Part shown: one piece after another, positions 8,458-39,097 of the stretch
Layout: the number at the start of each line of letters is the position of its first letter
How positions within the stretch are numbered: position 1 is the stretch's first letter
Position numbers and translations under genes: made by a program
NCBI GenBank assembly: GCA_024405455.1
Contig: JAKSOT010000010.1
Coordinates: 1 to 39,301, forward strand
Direction: 5' to 3'
Source of the DNA: Akkermansia sp.
GTDB taxonomy: Bacteria > Verrucomicrobiota > Verrucomicrobiia > Verrucomicrobiales > Akkermansiaceae
DNA: 39,301 nucleotides
Notes under the pieces: generated by a model
Database searches by the model: none
The model's input: only the letters and a program-made list of their open reading frames with translations
Told to the model about the DNA's origin: nothing

Positions 8458-9075
8458 ATGCCGGACACTGACACAGAAGAGACGCCATACGTTTCCCGCA
8501 CGCAGCAGAGGAAGATTGACTTCATGAACCACCTGGGTCGTGGCGCCGGATTTGTGGTGCTGTTGCTGGCAGTGGTATTTGTGGTGTGGTTTGCGTTCAA
8601 CGTGCCGGGGCATCCCTGGCGGCAAAACGATGCCAAGCTGCCGTGGCAAGGCGAGGGCGTGATAGTGGAGGAGGCGCGGGTGCAGTGGAACTCCACCAAG
8701 GGCGACGAGCGCCTGGAGCTGCGCGCCCTGCTCTACCCCACGGTGCACATCAAGCTGGGCAACTGCACCGGCAGCGGCTACCTGCACGCCGTCTTCAAGG
8801 ACCCTGCGGGCCACCAGGTGGGCAACATCTGCCGCATCCCGTACCGCGACGGGCAGTTCATCGAGACCAACGAGCTGACCGTCCAGGCGGCGGGCAAGGA
8901 AGCCACCTGCTACATTGAGACGGGCATCCAGGACAAGGACTCCTACATATTGCACAAGATGAACGTGGACGAGCCGCTGTGGCGCGTGGAGATCCGCAAC
9001 GAGCCGAACGGCAAGTACGAGCATGAGGTGCTGGGGCACAAGAGCATCCCGGCGGTGGACTTTCCCGGCTTATGA
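8458..9075 (+). CDS. One-TM protein of unknown function upstream of lnt
   Basis: A 205-residue protein with a cytoplasmic N-terminus (basic TQQRK), one hydrophobic helix at residues 29-48, and an exported domain of about 150 residues. That domain has three Cys (103, 125, 151), a run of beta-strand-like segments (LELRALLYPTVHIKLGNC, GYLHAVFKDP) and an EPLWRVEIRNEPNG stretch. I do not recognise the family. An open frame extends upstream to 7678, but that part is antisense to ferredoxin and dciA and is rejected. The stop overlaps the lnt start by four bases (ATGA), so the protein is made together with Lnt and may act at the same periplasmic face. Confidence 0.75.
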   Translation: MPDTDTEETPYVSRTQQRKIDFMNHLGRGAGFVVLLLAVVFVVWFAFNVPGHPWRQNDAKLPWQGEGVIVEEARVQWNSTKGDERLELRALLYPTVHIKLGNCTGSGYLHAVFKDPAGHQVGNICRIPYRDGQFIETNELTVQAAGKEATCYIETGIQDKDSYILHKMNVDEPLWRVEIRNEPNGKYEHEVLGHKSIPAVDFPGL

Positions 9076-10964
9076 GCGGTGAAGCGGCAGCCGCCCCCGC
9101 ATGCACGCAAGGCCGGAGCAAGCGGCGGCTTTCCCTGGATTGGCTGTGGGCGCTGCTGAGCGGCGCGTTCATGGCGCTGGCGTACCCGCCGTATGACATC
9201 GGGAGCCTGGTGTGGGTGGGGCTGCTGCCTCTGCTCACGGTGCTGTGGTGCAGGAGCGCGGGATTTTGGCGCGGGTTCCGGCTGGGTTGGCTGTACGGCA
9301 TGGGCTGGTACAGCGTGAGCTTTTGGTGGATTCACAACGTGGGCGAGGTGTGGGGCATTCCCCTGCCCGTGTTCCTGGGCACGGCGTTCGTACCGCTCAT
9401 GGCGGTGTACTCCTGCCTGCCCGCGCTATGGGGCGGTGTGGCCAACACGTGGCTGCGCCCCTGCTCCGCCGAGCCGCCGCAGGTGGACGGCCTGCCGCAG
9501 GAGGAACGCAGGAAAGCCTGGGGCGAATGGGCCTCGCGCGACACCCTGTGCACGCTGCGTTGCGCGCTGGGGCTGGGCGCGCTGTGGGTGTGCATCGAAT
9601 GGCTGCGTGCCAGCGGCACGCTGGGCTTCAGCTGGTGCAGCCTGGGAACCGCGCTGTACGATGGGCTCTCCATGGTGCAGTGGGCGGAGTTTGTGGGCAC
9701 GAGCGCGCTGGCGTTCATCCCGGTGTTCACGTCTGTGGTGCTGTGGTGCGCGCTGCGGCGCGCGGTGCTTCACTTCAAGGGCTGCGGGGTGGGCTGCCGC
9801 CCGTGGGATTTCTACGGAGCGGTGGCGGTGCTGATGGTTTTGTTCTCCGGCGGTCTGTACCTTTCCCGCCAGTATTCGCCACAGGTGATGATGCAGCGGC
9901 CGGAGGTGCTGCAGCTGCCCGTGGCCGCCGTGCAAATCAACCTGGACCAGAACGAGCGCATGGCGGACGGCAGCGTGCAGCCCCACCTCTACGGCGTGTA
10001 CCTGCGCGCCACCAAGTGCGCGTTCGACCAGATTCAGAAAGACACCATGCAGCGCGCCGTGGAGCACCCGGATTTGGCGTTCACCCAGCAGCTGCCCGTG
10101 TGGGTGGTGTGGCCGGAAAGCGCACTGGGATGTCCCTTCCTGCGGGATGCGGACACGCGCGCCATCATCCCGGACCGCTACACGCAGGAGGTGCTGATGG
10201 GCGGGGACGGCCTGCCCAAGGTGCGCCAGCTGGTGCGCGAGATGGGCGGGCAGGATTTCGTGCTCTTCACCGGGGTGGACGAATACCTTTGCCGCACCGC
10301 GGATGACGGCACGCTCGCGCCCGCGGGCATGCTCAACTCCATGGCCGTGATGCCCGGCGGGCAGGACACCGCGCTCACCGCCTCCAAGCAGCATCTCATG
10401 CCCTTCGGCGAGTACATCCCGCTCGTGGATTCCATCGGCTGGATCGGAAAAGCCTTCTCCGCCATCACCGGCACCCAGGTGGGCGACGGCATCATCCCCG
10501 GCGAGGGCAGCGAGCCCCTGCGTGTCCCCGTGCCGGGAACGGACGAGACGGTGGACGCCATCCCCGCCATCTGCTATGAGGACACCGTCTCCCCACAGGT
10601 GGCCAAATTCGTGCGCCCCGGCCCGCAGGTTATCGTCAACGGCAGCAACGACGCCTGGTTCCGTGAGTCCGCGTGCGGAGAGCAGCAGGCCCGCGCCGCC
10701 GCCTTCCGCTGCATTGAGCTGCGCCGCCCCATGGTGCGCGCCGCCAACATGGGTGTCACCTGCGCCATTGCGCCCAACGGCGCCTTCATCCACGCCCTCC
10801 GCAAGGGTGATGGCGACCCGCACCTGGACGGCTTCAGCTACGCCGTGCTACCCGTGGACCGGGAGGCGGGTGTGACGCTGTACGCGGCGTGGGGAGACTG
10901 GGCGGTATTACTGTGCCTGCTGCTGGCGCTGGCAACAAGCGCGCCCGCTTGGAAGCGAGCCTAA
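9072..10964 (+). CDS. lnt: Apolipoprotein N-acyltransferase
   Basis: Lnt adds the third acyl chain to the N-terminal Cys of lipoproteins at the periplasmic side of the inner membrane. The protein has an N-terminal block of membrane helices (about residues 22-265) and a C-terminal nitrilase-fold domain. The catalytic triad is visible: Glu349 in VVWPESALG, Lys439 in TASKQHLMPFGEYIP and Cys501 in AICYEDTVS; AAFRCIELRRPMVRAANMG is also typical. At 630 residues it is about 120 longer than E. coli Lnt; part of the extra is a hydrophilic loop at about 130-155. The start overlaps the upstream one-TM gene. Substrate lipoproteins in this window include the proteins at 2566, 20393 and 37733. Confidence 0.95.
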   Translation: MSGEAAAAPACTQGRSKRRLSLDWLWALLSGAFMALAYPPYDIGSLVWVGLLPLLTVLWCRSAGFWRGFRLGWLYGMGWYSVSFWWIHNVGEVWGIPLPVFLGTAFVPLMAVYSCLPALWGGVANTWLRPCSAEPPQVDGLPQEERRKAWGEWASRDTLCTLRCALGLGALWVCIEWLRASGTLGFSWCSLGTALYDGLSMVQWAEFVGTSALAFIPVFTSVVLWCALRRAVLHFKGCGVGCRPWDFYGAVAVLMVLFSGGLYLSRQYSPQVMMQRPEVLQLPVAAVQINLDQNERMADGSVQPHLYGVYLRATKCAFDQIQKDTMQRAVEHPDLAFTQQLPVWVVWPESALGCPFLRDADTRAIIPDRYTQEVLMGGDGLPKVRQLVREMGGQDFVLFTGVDEYLCRTADDGTLAPAGMLNSMAVMPGGQDTALTASKQHLMPFGEYIPLVDSIGWIGKAFSAITGTQVGDGIIPGEGSEPLRVPVPGTDETVDAIPAICYEDTVSPQVAKFVRPGPQVIVNGSNDAWFRESACGEQQARAAAFRCIELRRPMVRAANMGVTCAIAPNGAFIHALRKGDGDPHLDGFSYAVLPVDREAGVTLYAAWGDWAVLLCLLLALATSAPAWKRA

Positions 10965-30015: not shown

Positions 30016-31527
30016 ATGTGGTTGAATTCCCCTGTGAGCACGGGAGACGGCAGGGAGGGCAAGATTCGCTCGGTGATACTCAAGGGCGAGCTGGGGGGAA
30101 AGTTGGCCGGGCTGAGCCTGCCGCGCCAAATCGTCACCATTGCCCTGTGGCCGCTGCTGGAGCAGGTCATGGGCTTCATCTGCTCCTGCAACACCGTCAT
30201 CCTCTCCAACCACCTGGGTACCACGCAGGAGCAGACCACGCAGATAGCGGCGGGCATCGGCGTGACCTCGTACGTGATGTGGCTGGGGTTCCTGATGCAG
30301 GGATCCGTGGCCATGGGCGCCACGGCCATCGTGAGCCGCATGACAGGCGCGCGCAGGTTCGTGGAGGCCAACAACGCCGCCAACCAATCCGCCACCATGG
30401 GCCTGCTGGCCGGCATCGCCTCCGCCCTGCTGATGTACTTCTCCACCAACTACCTGGTGGTGCACTTCATGAACCTGTCCAGCTACGCGCAGGATGTGGC
30501 GCTGCGGTTCATGGACATCGCGTGCTGGTCCGCCATCTTCTCCGGTGTGATTTTTGCGGTGAACGCGGCGCTGCGCGGCGCGGGCGACACGCGCACGCCG
30601 TTCTACTTCATGGTGACGATGAACGGCCTGCAGGTGGCGTTCAGCCTGGTGCTCATCAAGTGTTTCGGGATGGACATCGAGGGTCTGGCGTGGGGGATGA
30701 TTTCCGCGATGGCGGCAACGGCGGCGTTCCTGGTGGGGCTGCTGGTGCGGCGCACCATGCGCATGAAACGCAGCATGGAGGGCCACGATGACTTGGACGC
30801 CTACGCGCGCTCGGTGAGCGCCACGTTCGTGCCGCCCATCTTCCTGCGCCTGCACTCGCTGTTCCCGCAATGGGACATGATCTACCGCATCGTGTGCATC
30901 GGCTTTCCGCAAGCCATCGAGGTGTGCGGCGTGTGGCTGGTGCAGGTGTACATTATGCGCATCATCTCCTCTCTGGGGGATGCCAGCGTGGGCGCGCACA
31001 ACATCGCCGTGAAAATCGAGTCCCTGAGCTTCCTGCCGGGCTTTGCGGTGGGCATAGCCAGCGCCACGCTGGTGGGGCAGTACCTGGGCGCGCGCAACCC
31101 ACGCATGGCCGTGGCCACAATATGGAAATGCACGTGGTACGCGCTGCTGTTCATGGGCGGCATGGGCGTGGTGTTCTACCTGTTCCCGGAGCTGTTCATC
31201 TACCCGTTTGCGGCGGATTCGCAGGCGCTGGTGGACGCGGCGCGGCCGGTGGTGCAGCTGTTCCTGATAGCGGAGCCGGTGTACGCCACCATGATGCTGT
31301 TCAAGACGAGCCTGCGCGGGGCGGGCGACACGCGGCGGGTGATGTACGTGACCTACACGTGCATGGGCGTGTTCCGCGGACTGGTGATTTTCCTGTGGAG
31401 CCGCTACTGGCCGGAGCACATCTCCCTGGTGGGCATCTGGAGCCTGTTTGTGCTGGACATGTCCGTGCAGTCCGTCATCCTGTACCGCATGGTCAAGGGG
31501 ATGAAATGGACCCGGCGCAAAGTGTAG
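30016..31527 (+). CDS. MATE family efflux transporter
   Basis: A 503-residue inner-membrane protein with about 12 helices arranged as two pseudo-repeats. MATE marks are LPRQIVTIALWPLLEQVMGF, QGSVAMGATAIVSRMTGARR, NAALRGAGDTRTPFYFMV in the first half, mirrored by GFAVGIASATLVGQYLGARNP and TSLRGAGDTRRVMYVTY in the second. MATE pumps export drugs or metabolites with H+ or Na+. The substrate is not indicated. A TACAAA box (30001-30006) lies 9 bases before the ATG without a clear -35. It is followed by a GACGGGC/GCCCGTC dyad (31534-31563) and then the rplI terminator. Confidence 0.92.
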   Translation: MWLNSPVSTGDGREGKIRSVILKGELGGKLAGLSLPRQIVTIALWPLLEQVMGFICSCNTVILSNHLGTTQEQTTQIAAGIGVTSYVMWLGFLMQGSVAMGATAIVSRMTGARRFVEANNAANQSATMGLLAGIASALLMYFSTNYLVVHFMNLSSYAQDVALRFMDIACWSAIFSGVIFAVNAALRGAGDTRTPFYFMVTMNGLQVAFSLVLIKCFGMDIEGLAWGMISAMAATAAFLVGLLVRRTMRMKRSMEGHDDLDAYARSVSATFVPPIFLRLHSLFPQWDMIYRIVCIGFPQAIEVCGVWLVQVYIMRIISSLGDASVGAHNIAVKIESLSFLPGFAVGIASATLVGQYLGARNPRMAVATIWKCTWYALLFMGGMGVVFYLFPELFIYPFAADSQALVDAARPVVQLFLIAEPVYATMMLFKTSLRGAGDTRRVMYVTYTCMGVFRGLVIFLWSRYWPEHISLVGIWSLFVLDMSVQSVILYRMVKGMKWTRRKV

Positions 31528-32320: not shown

Positions 32321-34036
32321 ATGACGGGACTGCGTTCTCAATTTTGCGGCGTGATAATGGGCAAACTGCTGGTCACCGCCACATTCCAGCGGCTGGCCGA
32401 GCTTGTGGTGGCCATGACGGGCATGGTGGCGGCCGCCCAGTTCTACGAGGAGGACGGCATTTCCGTCATCAACCTCACGCTGCCCGTGCTGGCGCTCGGC
32501 CTGCTGCTCAGCGTGCTGAACGCCACGGGGGCGGGCTACCGCTACTCCTACGAGCTGGGGCGGTGCAACGAGACGGAGGCGTACCGCCAATACGGCCAGG
32601 CCGTGATTTTCTCCGTGGTGTCGGGCCTGGCGCTGGCGCTGGTGTGCTATCTTGGGCGGGATGCGTACTACACGTTCATGGGGGTGTCCGACAAGCTGTA
32701 CCCACTGTTCTACGAGTATTGGCCGTACCTGTTGCTGCTGCTGGTGGTGGACCCGCCGCTCACGCTGCTGCAGACGATTGTCTACAACGACGGCGACTCG
32801 CGCACGTGCAGCGTGGCGATTGTGGTGCAGCTGGCGGGCAACCTCGTCCTGCCGTACTGGTTCGGCAGTATGATGGGGATGGGCGGCATCGGCCTGGGCG
32901 TGGCGTGCAGCAGCCTGCTGGCCCTGCTGGTGTGCCTGCTGCATTTCGTGCGCCCCGGCAACTCCATCCACTTCCGTTGGCACTTCAAGTGGCGGGACTT
33001 CATCTACAACTCGCGCTACAGCTTGGACGACGCGCTGCCCCTGCTCTACTCCGGCCTGTTCTCCCTCATCCTGACCAAGTTCATCATCGGCATGTACGGG
33101 GAGGCCTACCTGCCGGTGCTCACCGTGGTCATCTTCCTGGTGGAGATGTGCCTGCTCACCGATGCCATCGGCCAGGCCGCGCTGCCGCTGGTGAGCGTAT
33201 ACCGCGGAGAGGGCAACAGCGCAGGCATCCGCAAGACCATGCGCCAAGCCGCTTGCTGGGCCGTGGCGGAGGGCCTGCTGGGCGCCGCCATCCTGTTTTT
33301 CGGGGCGGAGCGGCTGCCGGGGGCAGTCAACATAGACGAGCCCGCCCTATGCGCCCAGGTGGTGACGGCGGCACGCATCCTCACGCCCATTCCGCTGGCG
33401 TACTCCCTGCTCTTCCTGTACGCCTCCTACTACTTGATGATCGAGCGCGTGAAGCTCAGTTTGGGGATTCTGCTGGTACGCGACCTGGTGTTCAGCCTGG
33501 CGCTGCCTGTTGCGTGCGGGGCGTGGCTGGGCCTTGAGGGAGTGTGGCTGGGCGTGGCGCTGGCCCCCATTGTCACCCTGGTGCTGGCGGCGGGCTACGT
33601 GCTGGTGCGGCACGGGCGCGGGAAGTTTCCCCTGCTGCTTGAGCGCGAGGGGCTCACCCAGCTCTCCCGCGACATCGTGCTCAACGTGGACAACATCTTC
33701 ACCCTGCAGCGGCACGTGGAGGAATTCCTGAAACTCCACCATGCGGGCACGGAGACCAAATTCAAGGTCATGATGCTGGTGGAGGAGCTCTACATGCTCA
33801 CCCTGGAGAAGAACCCCGGGCGCCGCATCGTGGCGGAATGCACCATCTTCGCCGGGAAGGAAATCACCTTCGTCTCGCGCGACACCGGCATCATCTTCGA
33901 CATCACCGATTCCGACTGCCCCGTCTCCTCCTTCCGCAGCTTCGTCGTCTCCAGCATGATGGAGCAGCACACCCTCCGCCACTACCAGCTCACCACCAGC
34001 TTCAACCGCCAGGTCTTCAAATTCCCGGTCGCGTGA
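32321..34036 (+). CDS. MATE-like membrane protein fused to a kinase-like ATPase domain
   Basis: A 571-residue protein. Residues about 1-435 form a divergent MATE-type transporter with about 12 helices (TFQRLAELVVAMTGMVAAAQFYEEDGISVINLTLPVLALGLLLSVLN; ELGRCNETEAYRQYGQ; DAIGQAALPLVSVYRGEGN). Residues 445-571 are soluble and look like a small histidine-kinase/anti-sigma-type ATPase fold: an N-box-like helix FKVMMLVEELYMLTLEKN (Glu488/489), SRDTGIIFDITD (Asp521, Gly523 as a G1 box) and a final strand FNRQVFKF. The usual G2 glycines are missing, so nucleotide binding may be weak. This suggests transport or flipping controlled by, or coupled to, a regulatory domain. The start is ATG 32321; an upstream Met at 32294 lies before the -10. 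Confidence 0.75.
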   Translation: MTGLRSQFCGVIMGKLLVTATFQRLAELVVAMTGMVAAAQFYEEDGISVINLTLPVLALGLLLSVLNATGAGYRYSYELGRCNETEAYRQYGQAVIFSVVSGLALALVCYLGRDAYYTFMGVSDKLYPLFYEYWPYLLLLLVVDPPLTLLQTIVYNDGDSRTCSVAIVVQLAGNLVLPYWFGSMMGMGGIGLGVACSSLLALLVCLLHFVRPGNSIHFRWHFKWRDFIYNSRYSLDDALPLLYSGLFSLILTKFIIGMYGEAYLPVLTVVIFLVEMCLLTDAIGQAALPLVSVYRGEGNSAGIRKTMRQAACWAVAEGLLGAAILFFGAERLPGAVNIDEPALCAQVVTAARILTPIPLAYSLLFLYASYYLMIERVKLSLGILLVRDLVFSLALPVACGAWLGLEGVWLGVALAPIVTLVLAAGYVLVRHGRGKFPLLLEREGLTQLSRDIVLNVDNIFTLQRHVEEFLKLHHAGTETKFKVMMLVEELYMLTLEKNPGRRIVAECTIFAGKEITFVSRDTGIIFDITDSDCPVSSFRSFVVSSMMEQHTLRHYQLTTSFNRQVFKFPVA

Positions 34037-34165: not shown

Positions 34166-35629
34166 GTGAACTTAATCTCTCATAGACTCGTGAAAAAGGT
34201 TGTTAAATGGATAGTCGTAGCGCTGCTCGTGATAGGGGCGGTGGTGTTTTGGATGAACCGCGACGGCGGGGACGCCGATGCTCCCAACTTCCGCACCGCG
34301 CCCGTGGTGAAGGGTGACTTTGTGAGCAAGGTGCAGGCCACCGGCACGCTGGAGCCCAGCGAATTGGTTGACGTGGGCGCCCAGGTGACCGGGGAAATCA
34401 AGGAGTTCGGCACGGACACGGAGGGACGCCGCATCGACTACGGCAGCGAGGTGAAGGCCGGCCAGCTTCTGGCTCGCATCGACGACACCATCGTGGAGCT
34501 GAACATCCAGCGCGCGGAGGCCAGCGTGGAGCAGGCCAAGGCGCAAATCCTCAATTCCAACGCCAGCGTGGAGCAGGCCAAGGCCAGCATCTCGCAAGCC
34601 AAGGCCAACAAGAACAAGGCCGACCGCGACCTGGAGCGCGCCAAGAAGCTGGGCGTGGGCGACGCCCTCTCCCAGATGAGCTACGACCAGTACGTGACCG
34701 CCGCGGAAACCACCGCCGCCAACCTGGAGAGCGCCACCGCGCAGCTGGAGACCGCCAAGGCGCAGCAGGCCAGCGCGCAGGCCCAGCTGCTCAGCGCGCA
34801 GGCCCAGCTGAAGAGCGAGCTGCGCAACCGCGACTACACGCACATCTCCTCCCCCGTGGACGGCACCATCGTGGTGCGCCAGGTGAACGTGGGGCAGACC
34901 GTGGTGAGCAACATGAGCGCCTCCACCCTGTTCCTGGTGGCGCGCGACCTTTCCAAGATGCAGATTTGGGCGAGCGTGAACGAGGCGGACATAGCGAAGG
35001 TGCACCCGGGCCAGCTGGTGCGCTTCACCGTGGACGCCCGCCCGCACGAGGACTACACCGGAACGGTGAACAAGATCCGCCCGAACGCCACCATGAGCTC
35101 CAACGTGGTCACCTACATCGTGGAAATCGACATCGACAACCCGGAGCGCAAGCTGCTGCCCTACATGAGCGCCAACGCCGATTTCATTGTGCAGGAGGTG
35201 AAAGACGCCCTGCTGGTGCCCGACGCCGCGTTCGACTTCCATCCCGCGCCCAAGATGCTCGACCCGCAGTTTGCCGGAAAGAAGCCCGATGCGGCACCCG
35301 CCGAGGACGGTCCCGTGACCCTGTGGCGCAAGACGGACGAGCACCACGTGGCTCCCGTGCGCGTCATCCGCGGCGACAGCGACGGCACGCGCAGCATCGT
35401 CACCCTGCCAGAGGGCGAGACGCTGGAGCCCGGCACGGAGCTGGTGACCGGCATTGAAATCATCATCCCGGAAGGCGCGGGCATGGCCGGAGGCCCCGGC
35501 GCGAACGGCGGCCAGGGCGGCAACCTCTTCCGCCCGAAGATGCCGGAGCGTCCCAAGCGCGGCGCGGGCGGCGTGGAGGCCAAGCCCGGCCAGGAAGTCA
35601 AGCGCCAGAACCGCGGCCCCCACTTCTAA
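34166..35629 (+). CDS. MacA-type periplasmic adaptor of a tripartite ABC pump
   Basis: A membrane-fusion protein of up to 487 residues. There is one N-terminal helix (KKVVKWIVVALLVIGAVVFW), a lipoyl half (ATGTLEPSELVDVGAQVTGEIKE), a long alpha-helical hairpin rich in Ala/Gln/Lys (about 115-215, with repeated ASVEQAKA), the second lipoyl half (SSPVDGTIVVRQVNVGQTV), a beta-barrel and a Gly/Pro-rich C-terminal tail that most MacA proteins lack. It links the inner-membrane ABC transporter to the TolC-type protein. Start: GTG at 34166, or GTG at 34190 which gives the cleaner KKVVKW beginning; no Shine-Dalgarno decides. First gene of a four-gene operon. Confidence 0.9.
   Translation: MNLISHRLVKKVVKWIVVALLVIGAVVFWMNRDGGDADAPNFRTAPVVKGDFVSKVQATGTLEPSELVDVGAQVTGEIKEFGTDTEGRRIDYGSEVKAGQLLARIDDTIVELNIQRAEASVEQAKAQILNSNASVEQAKASISQAKANKNKADRDLERAKKLGVGDALSQMSYDQYVTAAETTAANLESATAQLETAKAQQASAQAQLLSAQAQLKSELRNRDYTHISSPVDGTIVVRQVNVGQTVVSNMSASTLFLVARDLSKMQIWASVNEADIAKVHPGQLVRFTVDARPHEDYTGTVNKIRPNATMSSNVVTYIVEIDIDNPERKLLPYMSANADFIVQEVKDALLVPDAAFDFHPAPKMLDPQFAGKKPDAAPAEDGPVTLWRKTDEHHVAPVRVIRGDSDGTRSIVTLPEGETLEPGTELVTGIEIIIPEGAGMAGGPGANGGQGGNLFRPKMPERPKRGAGGVEAKPGQEVKRQNRGPHF
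34520..34584 (+). repeat. 23-bp direct repeat in the adaptor gene
   Basis: Bases 34520-34542 and 34562-34584 are identical, 42 bases apart (14 codons), encoding the ASVEQAKA repeats of the helical hairpin. Confidence 0.8.
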
Positions 35630-35647
35630 CCCCGACCCCCACGCACC

Positions 35648-36351
<704 letters not shown>

Positions 36352-36355
<4 letters not shown>

Positions 36356-37716
36356 AACCCTGGGTACTGTTCACAACCTGTATGCGCGCGCTGGTGCGCA
36401 ACCCCATGCGCGCGGTGCTCACCATCCTGGGTATCGTCATCGGCATTGCCGCCGTGGTGGCCATCCGCGAAATCGGCGAGGGCTCCAAGGAGCAAATCTC
36501 CACCCAGGTGGCCTCCCTCGGCGCGGATGTCGTCAACGTCTGGGGCGCTTCCGTCAACACCACCGGCGTGAACTCCGGCAAGGGCGGCCGCGCCTCCCTC
36601 TACCCGGAGGACGCCGCGGCCATCCTGCGCGAATGCAAGGAGACCGTGCTGATGGCCTCTCCCATGGTCCGCGCGGGCGGCCAGGTGATTGTGGGCAACA
36701 AGAACTGGAGCCCGGGTTCCATGGTGGGCGGCAACGAGGACTACCCCAAAATCGAGGGCTGGACCGTGGTCAACGGCCGCAGCTTCACCAAGGAGCAGGT
36801 GGACAACTCCGCGCGCGTCTGCCTCATCGGCATGACCATCGCCAAGGAGCTCTTTGCAGGCAAGGACCCCGTGGGCCAGGAAATCCGCATCAAGGACGTG
36901 GTGTTCACCGTCATCGGCGTGCTCGGTGAAAAGGGCGCGGACATGGGCAACGACAAGGACGACACCATCATCATGCCCTGGACGAGCATCCGCACGCGCC
37001 TGATGGGGGCGTCGCGCGAGGCGGCCATCATGCGCGGCGGCGCGTCCAACGCCAGCAAGCCCTCCGCCACCAGCACCTACTCCACCTCCGCCGTGAACTT
37101 CTATGCGGGAACCGAGCTGCAGCCCTACACCGGCGCACCCCACCCCCTGCGCACCCGCACGGTGGACAACCTCATCATCAAGATCAAGGACAAGGAGAAC
37201 GCCAAGCCCGCCATGGAGCAAATCACGCAGGTGCTGCGCCGCGAGCACAACCTGCAGCCCGGCGTGCTGGACGACTTCGAGATGTTCGACCGCGGCCAGA
37301 TTTCCAGCATGGTGACGAGCATATCCGACACCATGACCACGCTGCTGATGGCGGTGGCGTTCATCTCGCTGGTGGTGGGCGGCGTGGGCATCATGAACAT
37401 CATGCTCGTGTCCGTCACGGAGCGCACGCGCGAAATCGGCCTGCGCATGGCCGTGGGCGCGCGCCCGCGCGACATCATGCAGCAGTTTCTGCTGGAATCC
37501 GTGCTGCTGTGCCTGGTGGGCGGTATCCTGGGCATCATCCTGGGCCACGGCGCCTCCAGCATCATCAGCGCGCAGGCGGGGTGGCCCATCGCCACCTCGT
37601 ACGCCGCCATGGCGCTGGCCGTGTCCGTGGCCGCGTTCATCGGCATCGTCTTCGGCTGGTACCCCGCCTACAAGGCATCCAAGCTGGATCCCATCGACGC
37701 CCTCCACCACGAATAA
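36352..37716 (+). CDS. MacB-type ABC permease (FtsX family)
   Basis: A 454-residue permease with an N-terminal helix (MRAVLTILGIVIGIAAVVAI, about 19-38), a large periplasmic MacB core domain (about 45-310, with a Ser/Thr/Gly-rich stretch around 230-245), and three C-terminal helices of the FtsX domain (about 325-445), including SLVVGGVGIMNIMLVSVTERTREIGLRMAVGARPRDI and the end YPAYKASKLDPIDAL. This is the standard MacB topology without the ATPase domain. It works with the upstream ATPase and adaptor and the downstream outer-membrane factor. Export of peptides, macrolide-like compounds or siderophores is usual for the family; the substrate here is unknown. Confidence 0.94.
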
Positions 37717-37732
37717 TTTTTTCACAGCAAGC

Positions 37733-39097
37733 ATGAAAGCGCATCTTCTACCGGCAATGACCGCCCTGCTCCTGGCCTCCTGCGCCGTGGGGCCGGACTT
37801 CAAGGGGGCAAGCTTCGAGGGGCTGCCAGAAACCTGGCTCAGCGCCCTGCCCCCCGCCACAGACGAACACCAGCTGGAATCCTGGTGGCAAGCCTTCGGC
37901 GACCCCCAGCTCACCGCGCTCATCGAGGCCGGGTTCGCCGCCAACCACGACATCATCAACGCCGCGCTCAACATCGCCCGCGCGGAATCCAGTCTGCGCG
38001 CCATGAAGGCGGACCTCTTCCCGTACGTGTCCGGCAACTTCGGCGGCAGCAACTCCGGCTCGTACGACACCCGCACCAGCCACGGCCGCTGGAACGGCGG
38101 GCTCTCCGCATCCTGGACGCCGGACATCTGGGGCGGCACGCGCCGCGAGGTGGAGGCGGCCTACGCCGCGCTCGGCTCCGCCAAGGCAGCGGCAGCCGCC
38201 ACGCGCACCGCGCTGGCATCCAGCATCGCCGTCATCTACTTCCAATGGATATCCGCGCAGGAGAGCCTGCGCATCGCCAAGGAGCAGCTGGCCTACCAAG
38301 AGCGCACGTACGCCGCCACCGCATCCAGGCACAGCGCCGGGTTCGATTCCTCGCTGGATTTGGCGGAGGCCACCTCCACCATCGCCTCCACCCGCAGCCA
38401 GATTCCCGTGTACGAGGCCAACATCAAGACCTGCGAGAACACGCTGGCAACCTACCTGGCCACCACCGCGGACCACATCAAGCTCACCATGCCCCCGCCG
38501 GAGGTGTACAACCGCATCCCCACCGTGCCCACCGGGCTGCCGAGCGACCTGCTGCGCCGCCGCCCGGACATCATAGCCGCGGAGCACAACCTGCACCAGG
38601 CGTGCGCCCGCGTGGGCGTGAGCGTGGCCAACCTCTTCCCGCGCCTCTCGCTCACCGGCAGCACCAGCACCTCCTCCGGCTCGGACTTCTCCCACTTCTG
38701 GCAGAACGCCACCTGGAGCCTCGGCGCCAGCGTGAGCCAGCAGCTCCTCAACCGCGTGGCCCTGCGCGAAAGCGTCAAACAGGCGGAAATCTCCCAGCTC
38801 ACCTCCCTGCACACGTACGACAAGACTGTGCTGGCGGCCTTTGCGGAGGTGGAGACCTGCCTCATCGACTACGCGCGCTACACCAGCCAGCTGCCGCAGA
38901 TTGAGGCCGCCAACGCCGCCAACAAGCTCTCCGCCGAGCTGTCGCAGCGCCGCCACATCGCCGGCGAGTCCGACTTCCTCAACGTGGCCTCCGCGGAACG
39001 CGCCTGGCTCGCTTCCGAGCTCAACATCATCTCCGCGCGCCAGAACATCCGCATCACCCTCGCGCGCCTCTGCACCGCCCTCGGCGGCGGTTGGTGA
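37733..39097 (+). CDS. TolC-type outer membrane factor lipoprotein (NodT family)
   Basis: A 454-residue protein with a lipoprotein signal (lipobox LLASC, Cys17) and the OEP/NodT beginning AVGPDFKG. Two OEP repeats follow: WWQAFGDPQLTALIEAGFAANHDIINAALNIARAESSLRAMKADLFPYVS and LPSDLLRRRPDIIAAEHNLHQACARVGVSVANLFPRLSLTGS, each with coiled-coil helices and barrel strands. It forms the trimeric outer-membrane channel of the pump. It starts 16 bases after the permease, the last gene of the operon. No terminator is evident downstream. Confidence 0.94.
   Translation: MKAHLLPAMTALLLASCAVGPDFKGASFEGLPETWLSALPPATDEHQLESWWQAFGDPQLTALIEAGFAANHDIINAALNIARAESSLRAMKADLFPYVSGNFGGSNSGSYDTRTSHGRWNGGLSASWTPDIWGGTRREVEAAYAALGSAKAAAAATRTALASSIAVIYFQWISAQESLRIAKEQLAYQERTYAATASRHSAGFDSSLDLAEATSTIASTRSQIPVYEANIKTCENTLATYLATTADHIKLTMPPPEVYNRIPTVPTGLPSDLLRRRPDIIAAEHNLHQACARVGVSVANLFPRLSLTGSTSTSSGSDFSHFWQNATWSLGASVSQQLLNRVALRESVKQAEISQLTSLHTYDKTVLAAFAEVETCLIDYARYTSQLPQIEAANAANKLSAELSQRRHIAGESDFLNVASAERAWLASELNIISARQNIRITLARLCTALGGGW

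Follow-up and report, generated by a model that had tools for sequence, protein, structure and literature searches.

The window examined here is a stretch of 39,301 nucleotides from Akkermansia sp. (assembly GCA_024405455.1, contig JAKSOT010000010.1, forward strand). A gene at positions 32321..34036 (+) of this gut Akkermansia sequence encodes a protein of 571 amino acids, a MATE-family membrane protein with a fused C-terminal domain (CTD). The MATE-fold membrane domain comprises residues 1-440 (32321..33640, +), and residues 445-571 (33653..34033, +) form the CTD, for which predicted models and fold searches indicated a RsbW/SpoIIAB-like domain with the element order b-a-a-b-b-a-b-b. The original prediction, made from the DNA letters alone, had described a MATE-type protein fused to a GHKL-fold domain; the first half is borne out by Pfam MatE and the second by the predicted fold.

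Pfam MatE was matched by the fusion protein at 3.3e-14 (53.3 bits against a curated cut-off of 24.9) and by all 14 rows of the relatives' alignment (A1), and the MATE fold spanned the whole membrane domain. The place of the aspartate in transmembrane helix 1 (TM1; D40 of DinF-BH) is occupied by a glycine (G34, 32420..32422, +), and for this reason the protein was not classed as an ion-coupled exporter of the DinF/NorM type. All 12 copies of the Akkermansia clade carry glycine at this place and none carries aspartate; the aspartate is kept in 43 of 55 copies from families f43 and f42 (labels of the search tool, both in the same phylum) and in all four of the sequences P0011-P0014. In PMC4866600, DinF-BH D40A is reported to be inactive and mutation of D41 in NorM-NG to abolish drug transport. 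Taking these mutants and the glycine together, the Akkermansia-clade copies may perhaps be no ion-coupled pumps at all. D184 of DinF-BH proved to be uninformative as a marker: no fused row has an acidic residue at the corresponding place (P178), but the same holds for eight of the nine ordinary MATE proteins compared.

A fold search with the whole fusion protein returned MATE-type rows only, and the CTD was therefore modelled by itself. When this model was used in Foldseek and VIA searches, RsbW/SpoIIAB-type anti-sigma factors ranked at the top, and a RsbW/SpoIIAB-like GHKL fold is predicted for the CTD. The earlier description had left the choice between anti-sigma factor and sensor-kinase folds; the ranking supports the former kind and not the latter. 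A CTD profile compared with PDB sequences gave only two chance matches (E 0.89 and 1.8). A Pfam ANK_LRRK2 match at 0.035, seen in 4 of 14 alignment rows (best 0.0095), was below its own cut-off and was taken as chance.

The ATP-site motifs were compared in an alignment of 55 MATE-fused tails, a second group of eight fused tails, and 25 separate RsbW-like domains. These separate domains were collected with a profile whose seeds were intact domains, and decayed separate copies may therefore be missed. The 55 rows were made up of the window copy, eight relatives and 46 of the 57 fused-type open reading frames in the fetched loci; the 11 frames left out had weaker CTD scores (L156, L157, L081, L082, L154, two in L155, and L158-L161). 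The names and roles of the N-box, G1 and G2 boxes are used here in their usual sense. The N-box helix LVEELYMLTLEKN (residues 486-498, 33776..33814, +) contains the kept glutamate E489 and has L493 at the asparagine position. The original prediction identified this helix correctly (as VEELYMLTLEKN), but its last residue, N498, is not the N-box asparagine. In the G1 box RDTG (residues 520-523, 33878..33889, +) the aspartate and the first glycine are kept, whereas the segment at residues 527-539 (33899..33937, +) holds a shortened lid and a lost G2 box with S537 and R539 at the two glycine positions.

These features recurred throughout the fused tails. The second glutamate of the N-box and the aspartate of G1 were kept in all aligned rows, and E489, D521 and G523 in 55/55 fused copies. 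The N-box asparagine was present in 25/25 separate domains but in none of the 55 MATE-fused and none of the eight second-group tails. Both G2 glycines were found in every separate domain and were absent from every MATE-fused tail; the second group retains one of them in 8/8. The stretch of the ATP lid (described in PMC10120452) measured 10 residues in 55/55 fused tails; the second group has 19 residues here, and the 25 separate domains have 20-21. Judged from these alignments, the motif loss is a trait of the family and not a mutation peculiar to the window copy, and the CTD is predicted to be catalytically dead; with L493 in place of the asparagine, a lid 10 residues shorter, and S537 and R539 for the G2 glycines, it was not classed as an active RsbW. 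The degenerate boxes noticed in the original prediction are thus confirmed across the family, and its suggestion that the domain might phosphorylate a partner is unlikely to be correct. For three Akkermansia copies the rate of non-synonymous substitution (dN) was below the synonymous rate (dS) in both parts, with ratios of 0.36 to 0.57 in the MATE part and 0.34 to 0.55 in the tail, and the tail was better conserved than the MATE part in nine of nine relatives compared. These two observations make the CTD look like a domain under selection.

The same two-domain fusion is conserved across Akkermansia, f43 and f42 copies, a result that the original prediction had named as support. Of the 59 genomes searched as relatives, three yielded full-length copies, namely the window's own and two others of the genus (3/37 genus members). 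One relatives' search was confined to candidates of 0.55-1.75 times the query length, which kept stand-alone RsbW proteins out of its results. Within 387 genomes of the phylum, eight from families f43 and f42, besides the window's own, gave near full-length matches with E below 1e-130, and 45 of 114 f43 genomes had a total of 54 places at E <= 1e-60. The 12 Akkermansia-type sequences formed one group with a support of 100 in a tree of 83 rows (made by a quick method, with several long branches). Since the nearest rows outside this group were P0011-P0013 and five f43 copies, this distribution may reflect an old transfer as well as loss.

All 54 f43 places were fetched, and the 45 with a full tail (CTD score over 50) were used for neighbourhood counts; the other nine were counted apart, and the f42 gene (L073) stood outside the count. 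Within 3.5 kb and on the same strand, a STAS gene was found by 30 of the 45 fusions, a SpoIIE gene by 23, either by 34 and both by 19; a separate RsbW-like domain and a solute-binding protein were each found by 23. STAS genes were present by 28 of the 34 fusions with at least 3 kb of downstream sequence, and all 108 partner hits in the fetched stretches shared the strand of the fusion gene. Two layouts dominated: either the fusion was followed by a solute-binding protein, a SpoIIE with a RsbW-like domain and STAS, in this order, or STAS came directly after the fusion, in some cases along with a separate RsbW-like gene. As first partner in the 200 bp downstream, a solute-binding protein was seen in 21 cases, STAS in 12 and neither in 12. 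Pfam assigned STAS in L079 (5.1e-15), SpoIIE, HATPase_c_2 and SBP_bac_3 in L077 (8.6e-52, 3.2e-17 and 7e-26, respectively) and HATPase_c_2 and STAS in L120 (2.2e-18 and 1.3e-17). The STAS proteins of these clusters have a conserved serine loop. STAS genes were sparse, with 25 matches in 12 fusion-carrying f43 genomes whose rounded sizes add up to about 40.6 Mb. At an even spread, about 0.005 would be expected within 3.5 kb of one fused gene, whereas such a gene was found in 10 of the 12 genomes (in G473 and G222 none was found within this distance); the genomes are related, so this comparison gives no formal probability. A separate second case was seen in the group of P0016, where a SpoIIE gene (1.2e-47) directly follows the fused gene (L083).

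Taking into account the fusion and its conservation, the loss of the motifs, the same-strand clusters in f43 and the predicted fold, we propose, with a probability of roughly 0.55, that the CTD is a dead RsbW-like domain and likely serves as the docking site by which a phosphorylation-controlled STAS protein switches the membrane part on or off. The SpoIIE phosphatase, in many clusters encoded beside a solute-binding protein gene, would dephosphorylate the STAS protein, and an intact RsbW-like domain would rephosphorylate it. The unphosphorylated STAS protein would bind to the dead CTD on the MATE protein and change the state of the MATE part. This would be partner switching with a transporter instead of a sigma factor as its target. 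Because the fusion gene adjoins genes of the same phosphorylation switch in many related bacteria, the switch likely controls the transporter directly rather than a factor for reading genes. Sequestration or docking of a partner, the other half of the suggestion in the original prediction, would fit the STAS, SpoIIE and intact RsbW-like genes beside many relatives. In Akkermansia, where no adjacent partner gene was found, the partners would act in trans. In a more far-reaching form, to which we give somewhat less than even odds, the MATE protein with its dead RsbW domain captures the STAS protein dephosphorylated by SpoIIE and gates transport without a sigma factor; in Akkermansia, with both halves devoid of key catalytic residues, it would be a pseudo-transporter joined to a pseudo-kinase and act as a receptor in the same circuit.

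Several observations weigh against the docking proposal. Family searches of the window's contig yielded no STAS, SpoIIE or other HATPase_c_2 match, in agreement with the earlier statement that nothing relevant is adjacent, and the fetched flanks of the two other Akkermansia carriers (L039, L040) contained no STAS, SpoIIE, solute-binding or separate RsbW-like match. Neither STAS nor SpoIIE was found within 3.5 kb of 11 of the 45 f43 genes, six of which have more than 3 kb of sequence downstream (in L129, one of the six, STAS and SpoIIE lie 5 to 6 kb upstream), or in the 6 kb downstream of the single f42 copy, and only one of the nine copies with a more decayed tail had a partner nearby. Structure prediction on residues 445-571, suggested as a check in the original prediction, gave RsbW-type fold matches, but Pfam HATPase_c_2 was not matched by the window protein; in fused relatives it was matched below the cut-off in P0012 and P0016 and above it in L083. 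Model confidence was lowest at the lid and the last helix (block means 69-72 and 53-67 in two models). Adjacency of genes does not demonstrate contact of their products, and the signal may run from switch to transporter or from transporter to switch.

The main rival reverses the direction assumed in the docking proposal. The MATE part would be mainly a receptor, and ligand binding would make the dead RsbW domain capture or release STAS, or pair with an intact RsbW-like protein, with the signal passing from the membrane to the switch. The glycine at the TM1 aspartate place in 12/12 Akkermansia-clade copies favours such a receptor for Akkermansia, since in DinF-BH and NorM-NG (PMC4866600) the aspartate is needed for transport and ion coupling may thus be lost; CbrA provides a studied case in which a transporter domain and a kinase are joined, and the position of the solute-binding gene as first downstream partner in 21/45 f43 genes points the same way. 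However, most f43/f42 copies retain the aspartate, and the signal could instead be sensed by the some 350 residues that precede the phosphatase domain in the SpoIIE protein of L077. On balance we consider this receptor role rather unlikely.

A role of the CTD as a nucleotide sensor, binding ATP or ADP without hydrolysis and gating the MATE part by energy charge, would account for the retention of E489, D521 and G523, residues of the nucleotide site in intact members. This is improbable in view of the uniform loss of the N-box asparagine, the full lid and both G2 glycines, which all separate domains possess. Still less probable is a purely structural function in dimerisation or stability, without signalling: RsbW-type proteins dimerise and the CTD has lost its motif residues, but the same-strand linkage with STAS and SpoIIE would be left unexplained. 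The sensor-histidine-kinase-like ATPase module named in the original prediction shares the GHKL fold, and sensor kinases appeared as weaker structural matches to the CTD model, separated from the higher-scoring anti-sigma factors by a Z gap of about 5 to 6. In the predicted model only about 15 residues lie between the end of the last helix at 431 and a strand of the CTD at 447, leaving no room for a dimerisation helix pair, the absence of which had been noted correctly. Fold rank and lack of space led us to reject this module, the degenerate boxes also speaking against it; we regard it as very improbable.

For the docking proposal in Akkermansia, candidate partners are encoded elsewhere in the window's genome (G000, 93.5% complete). 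An intact stand-alone RsbW-like protein on contig C26 (L041:1232-1630, +; HATPase_c_2 3.7e-22, N-box asparagine present) is a possible partner kinase. STAS was found in two small proteins (C45, C49) and as matches in longer frames (C70, C74), and SpoIIE in two clear proteins, of which one has Cache and HAMP and the other PAS domains; a third match (C100) is weak. As this genome encodes STAS and SpoIIE proteins as well as an intact RsbW-like one, a switch circuit acting in trans would be possible.

Most known cases of partner switching concern sigma factors, with a few other targets; histidine-kinase domains (as in CbrA) belong to the GHKL superfamily, and MATE pumps are generally regarded as secondary transporters that lack regulation of this kind. 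Canonical partner switching ends in a sigma factor, according to PMC8256260. The f43 clusters resemble RsbU-RsbV-RsbW and SpoIIE-SpoIIAA-SpoIIAB in that many genomes encode SpoIIE, STAS with its serine loop and an intact RsbW-like domain together with the fusion, and the CTD has a predicted RsbW fold; there, however, a free kinase holds a sigma factor, whereas here a degenerate RsbW domain is attached to a MATE protein. As described in the respective abstracts, SiaC-SiaD of the SiaABCD system (P. aeruginosa) shows a partner-switching target other than a sigma factor, but this target is an enzyme and no fused kinase-fold domain is named; CbrA, a transceptor, combines transporter and histidine-kinase domains in one protein, but with SLC5 instead of MATE and with an active kinase and a response regulator; and MlaB is a STAS protein which binds a component of the MlaFEDB ABC transporter and is required both for its stability and for its function, but the component is the ATPase subunit, and neither a RsbW-like domain nor a phosphatase is named. 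NorM and DinF exporters share the fold and Pfam MatE, but the solved MATE chains matched have no such tail, and their TM1 aspartate is lost in the Akkermansia clade. Among the matches listed in searches of open-access literature, no report of a MATE-GHKL fusion or of MATE proteins in partner switching was found. The fusion would add a variant to both partner switching and the MATE family, with a regulatory step that we infer. If true, a membrane transporter would be controlled directly by phosphorylation, and the docking role of a dead kinase domain could be studied in a clean system; the fusion also gives a means of testing which targets the STAS and SpoIIE proteins have in these bacteria.

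Upstream of the fusion, at a distance of 0.8 kb, the window contains an ordinary MATE gene (30016-31527, +) whose product has asparagine aligned with the TM1 aspartate and sits on a very long branch of the tree. Downstream (34166-39097, +) lies a MacA-MacB-TolC-like set consisting of a HlyD-type protein, an ABC ATPase, a MacB-type permease and an OEP outer-membrane protein. In G000 and G001 this set lies next to the fusion, while in G003 the HlyD gene is about 11 kb away on the other strand; rplI adjoins the fusion in G000 and G003 and was not found by it in G001. As neither is constant across the three genomes, these neighbours were dropped as partners.

Some further observations were made in the relatives. 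In L077 a gene for a family 3 solute-binding protein (8467-9171) overlaps the stop codon of the fusion and lies ahead of SpoIIE, which hints that a small molecule provides the input. In L079 (3125-6506) the fusion-STAS pair is immediately followed by two proteins of the xanthine/uracil-permease type that carry N-terminal extensions of some 100 residues. Longer MATE fusions of about 760-770 amino acids with a more decayed RsbW-like part were seen at L081:5612-7909 and L082:5571-7853, with similar frames in L155, L159 and L160, and a further C-terminal stretch of L081 resembles GNAT acetyltransferase (PF00583, E 0.018, below cut-off). Flags for in-frame stops in relatives corresponded to the ordinary stop at the gene end in the two cases inspected (L074, L078). 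In the window itself, a short run of low complexity at positions 2634-2660 consists of eight consecutive, overlapping matches to AGGAGG.
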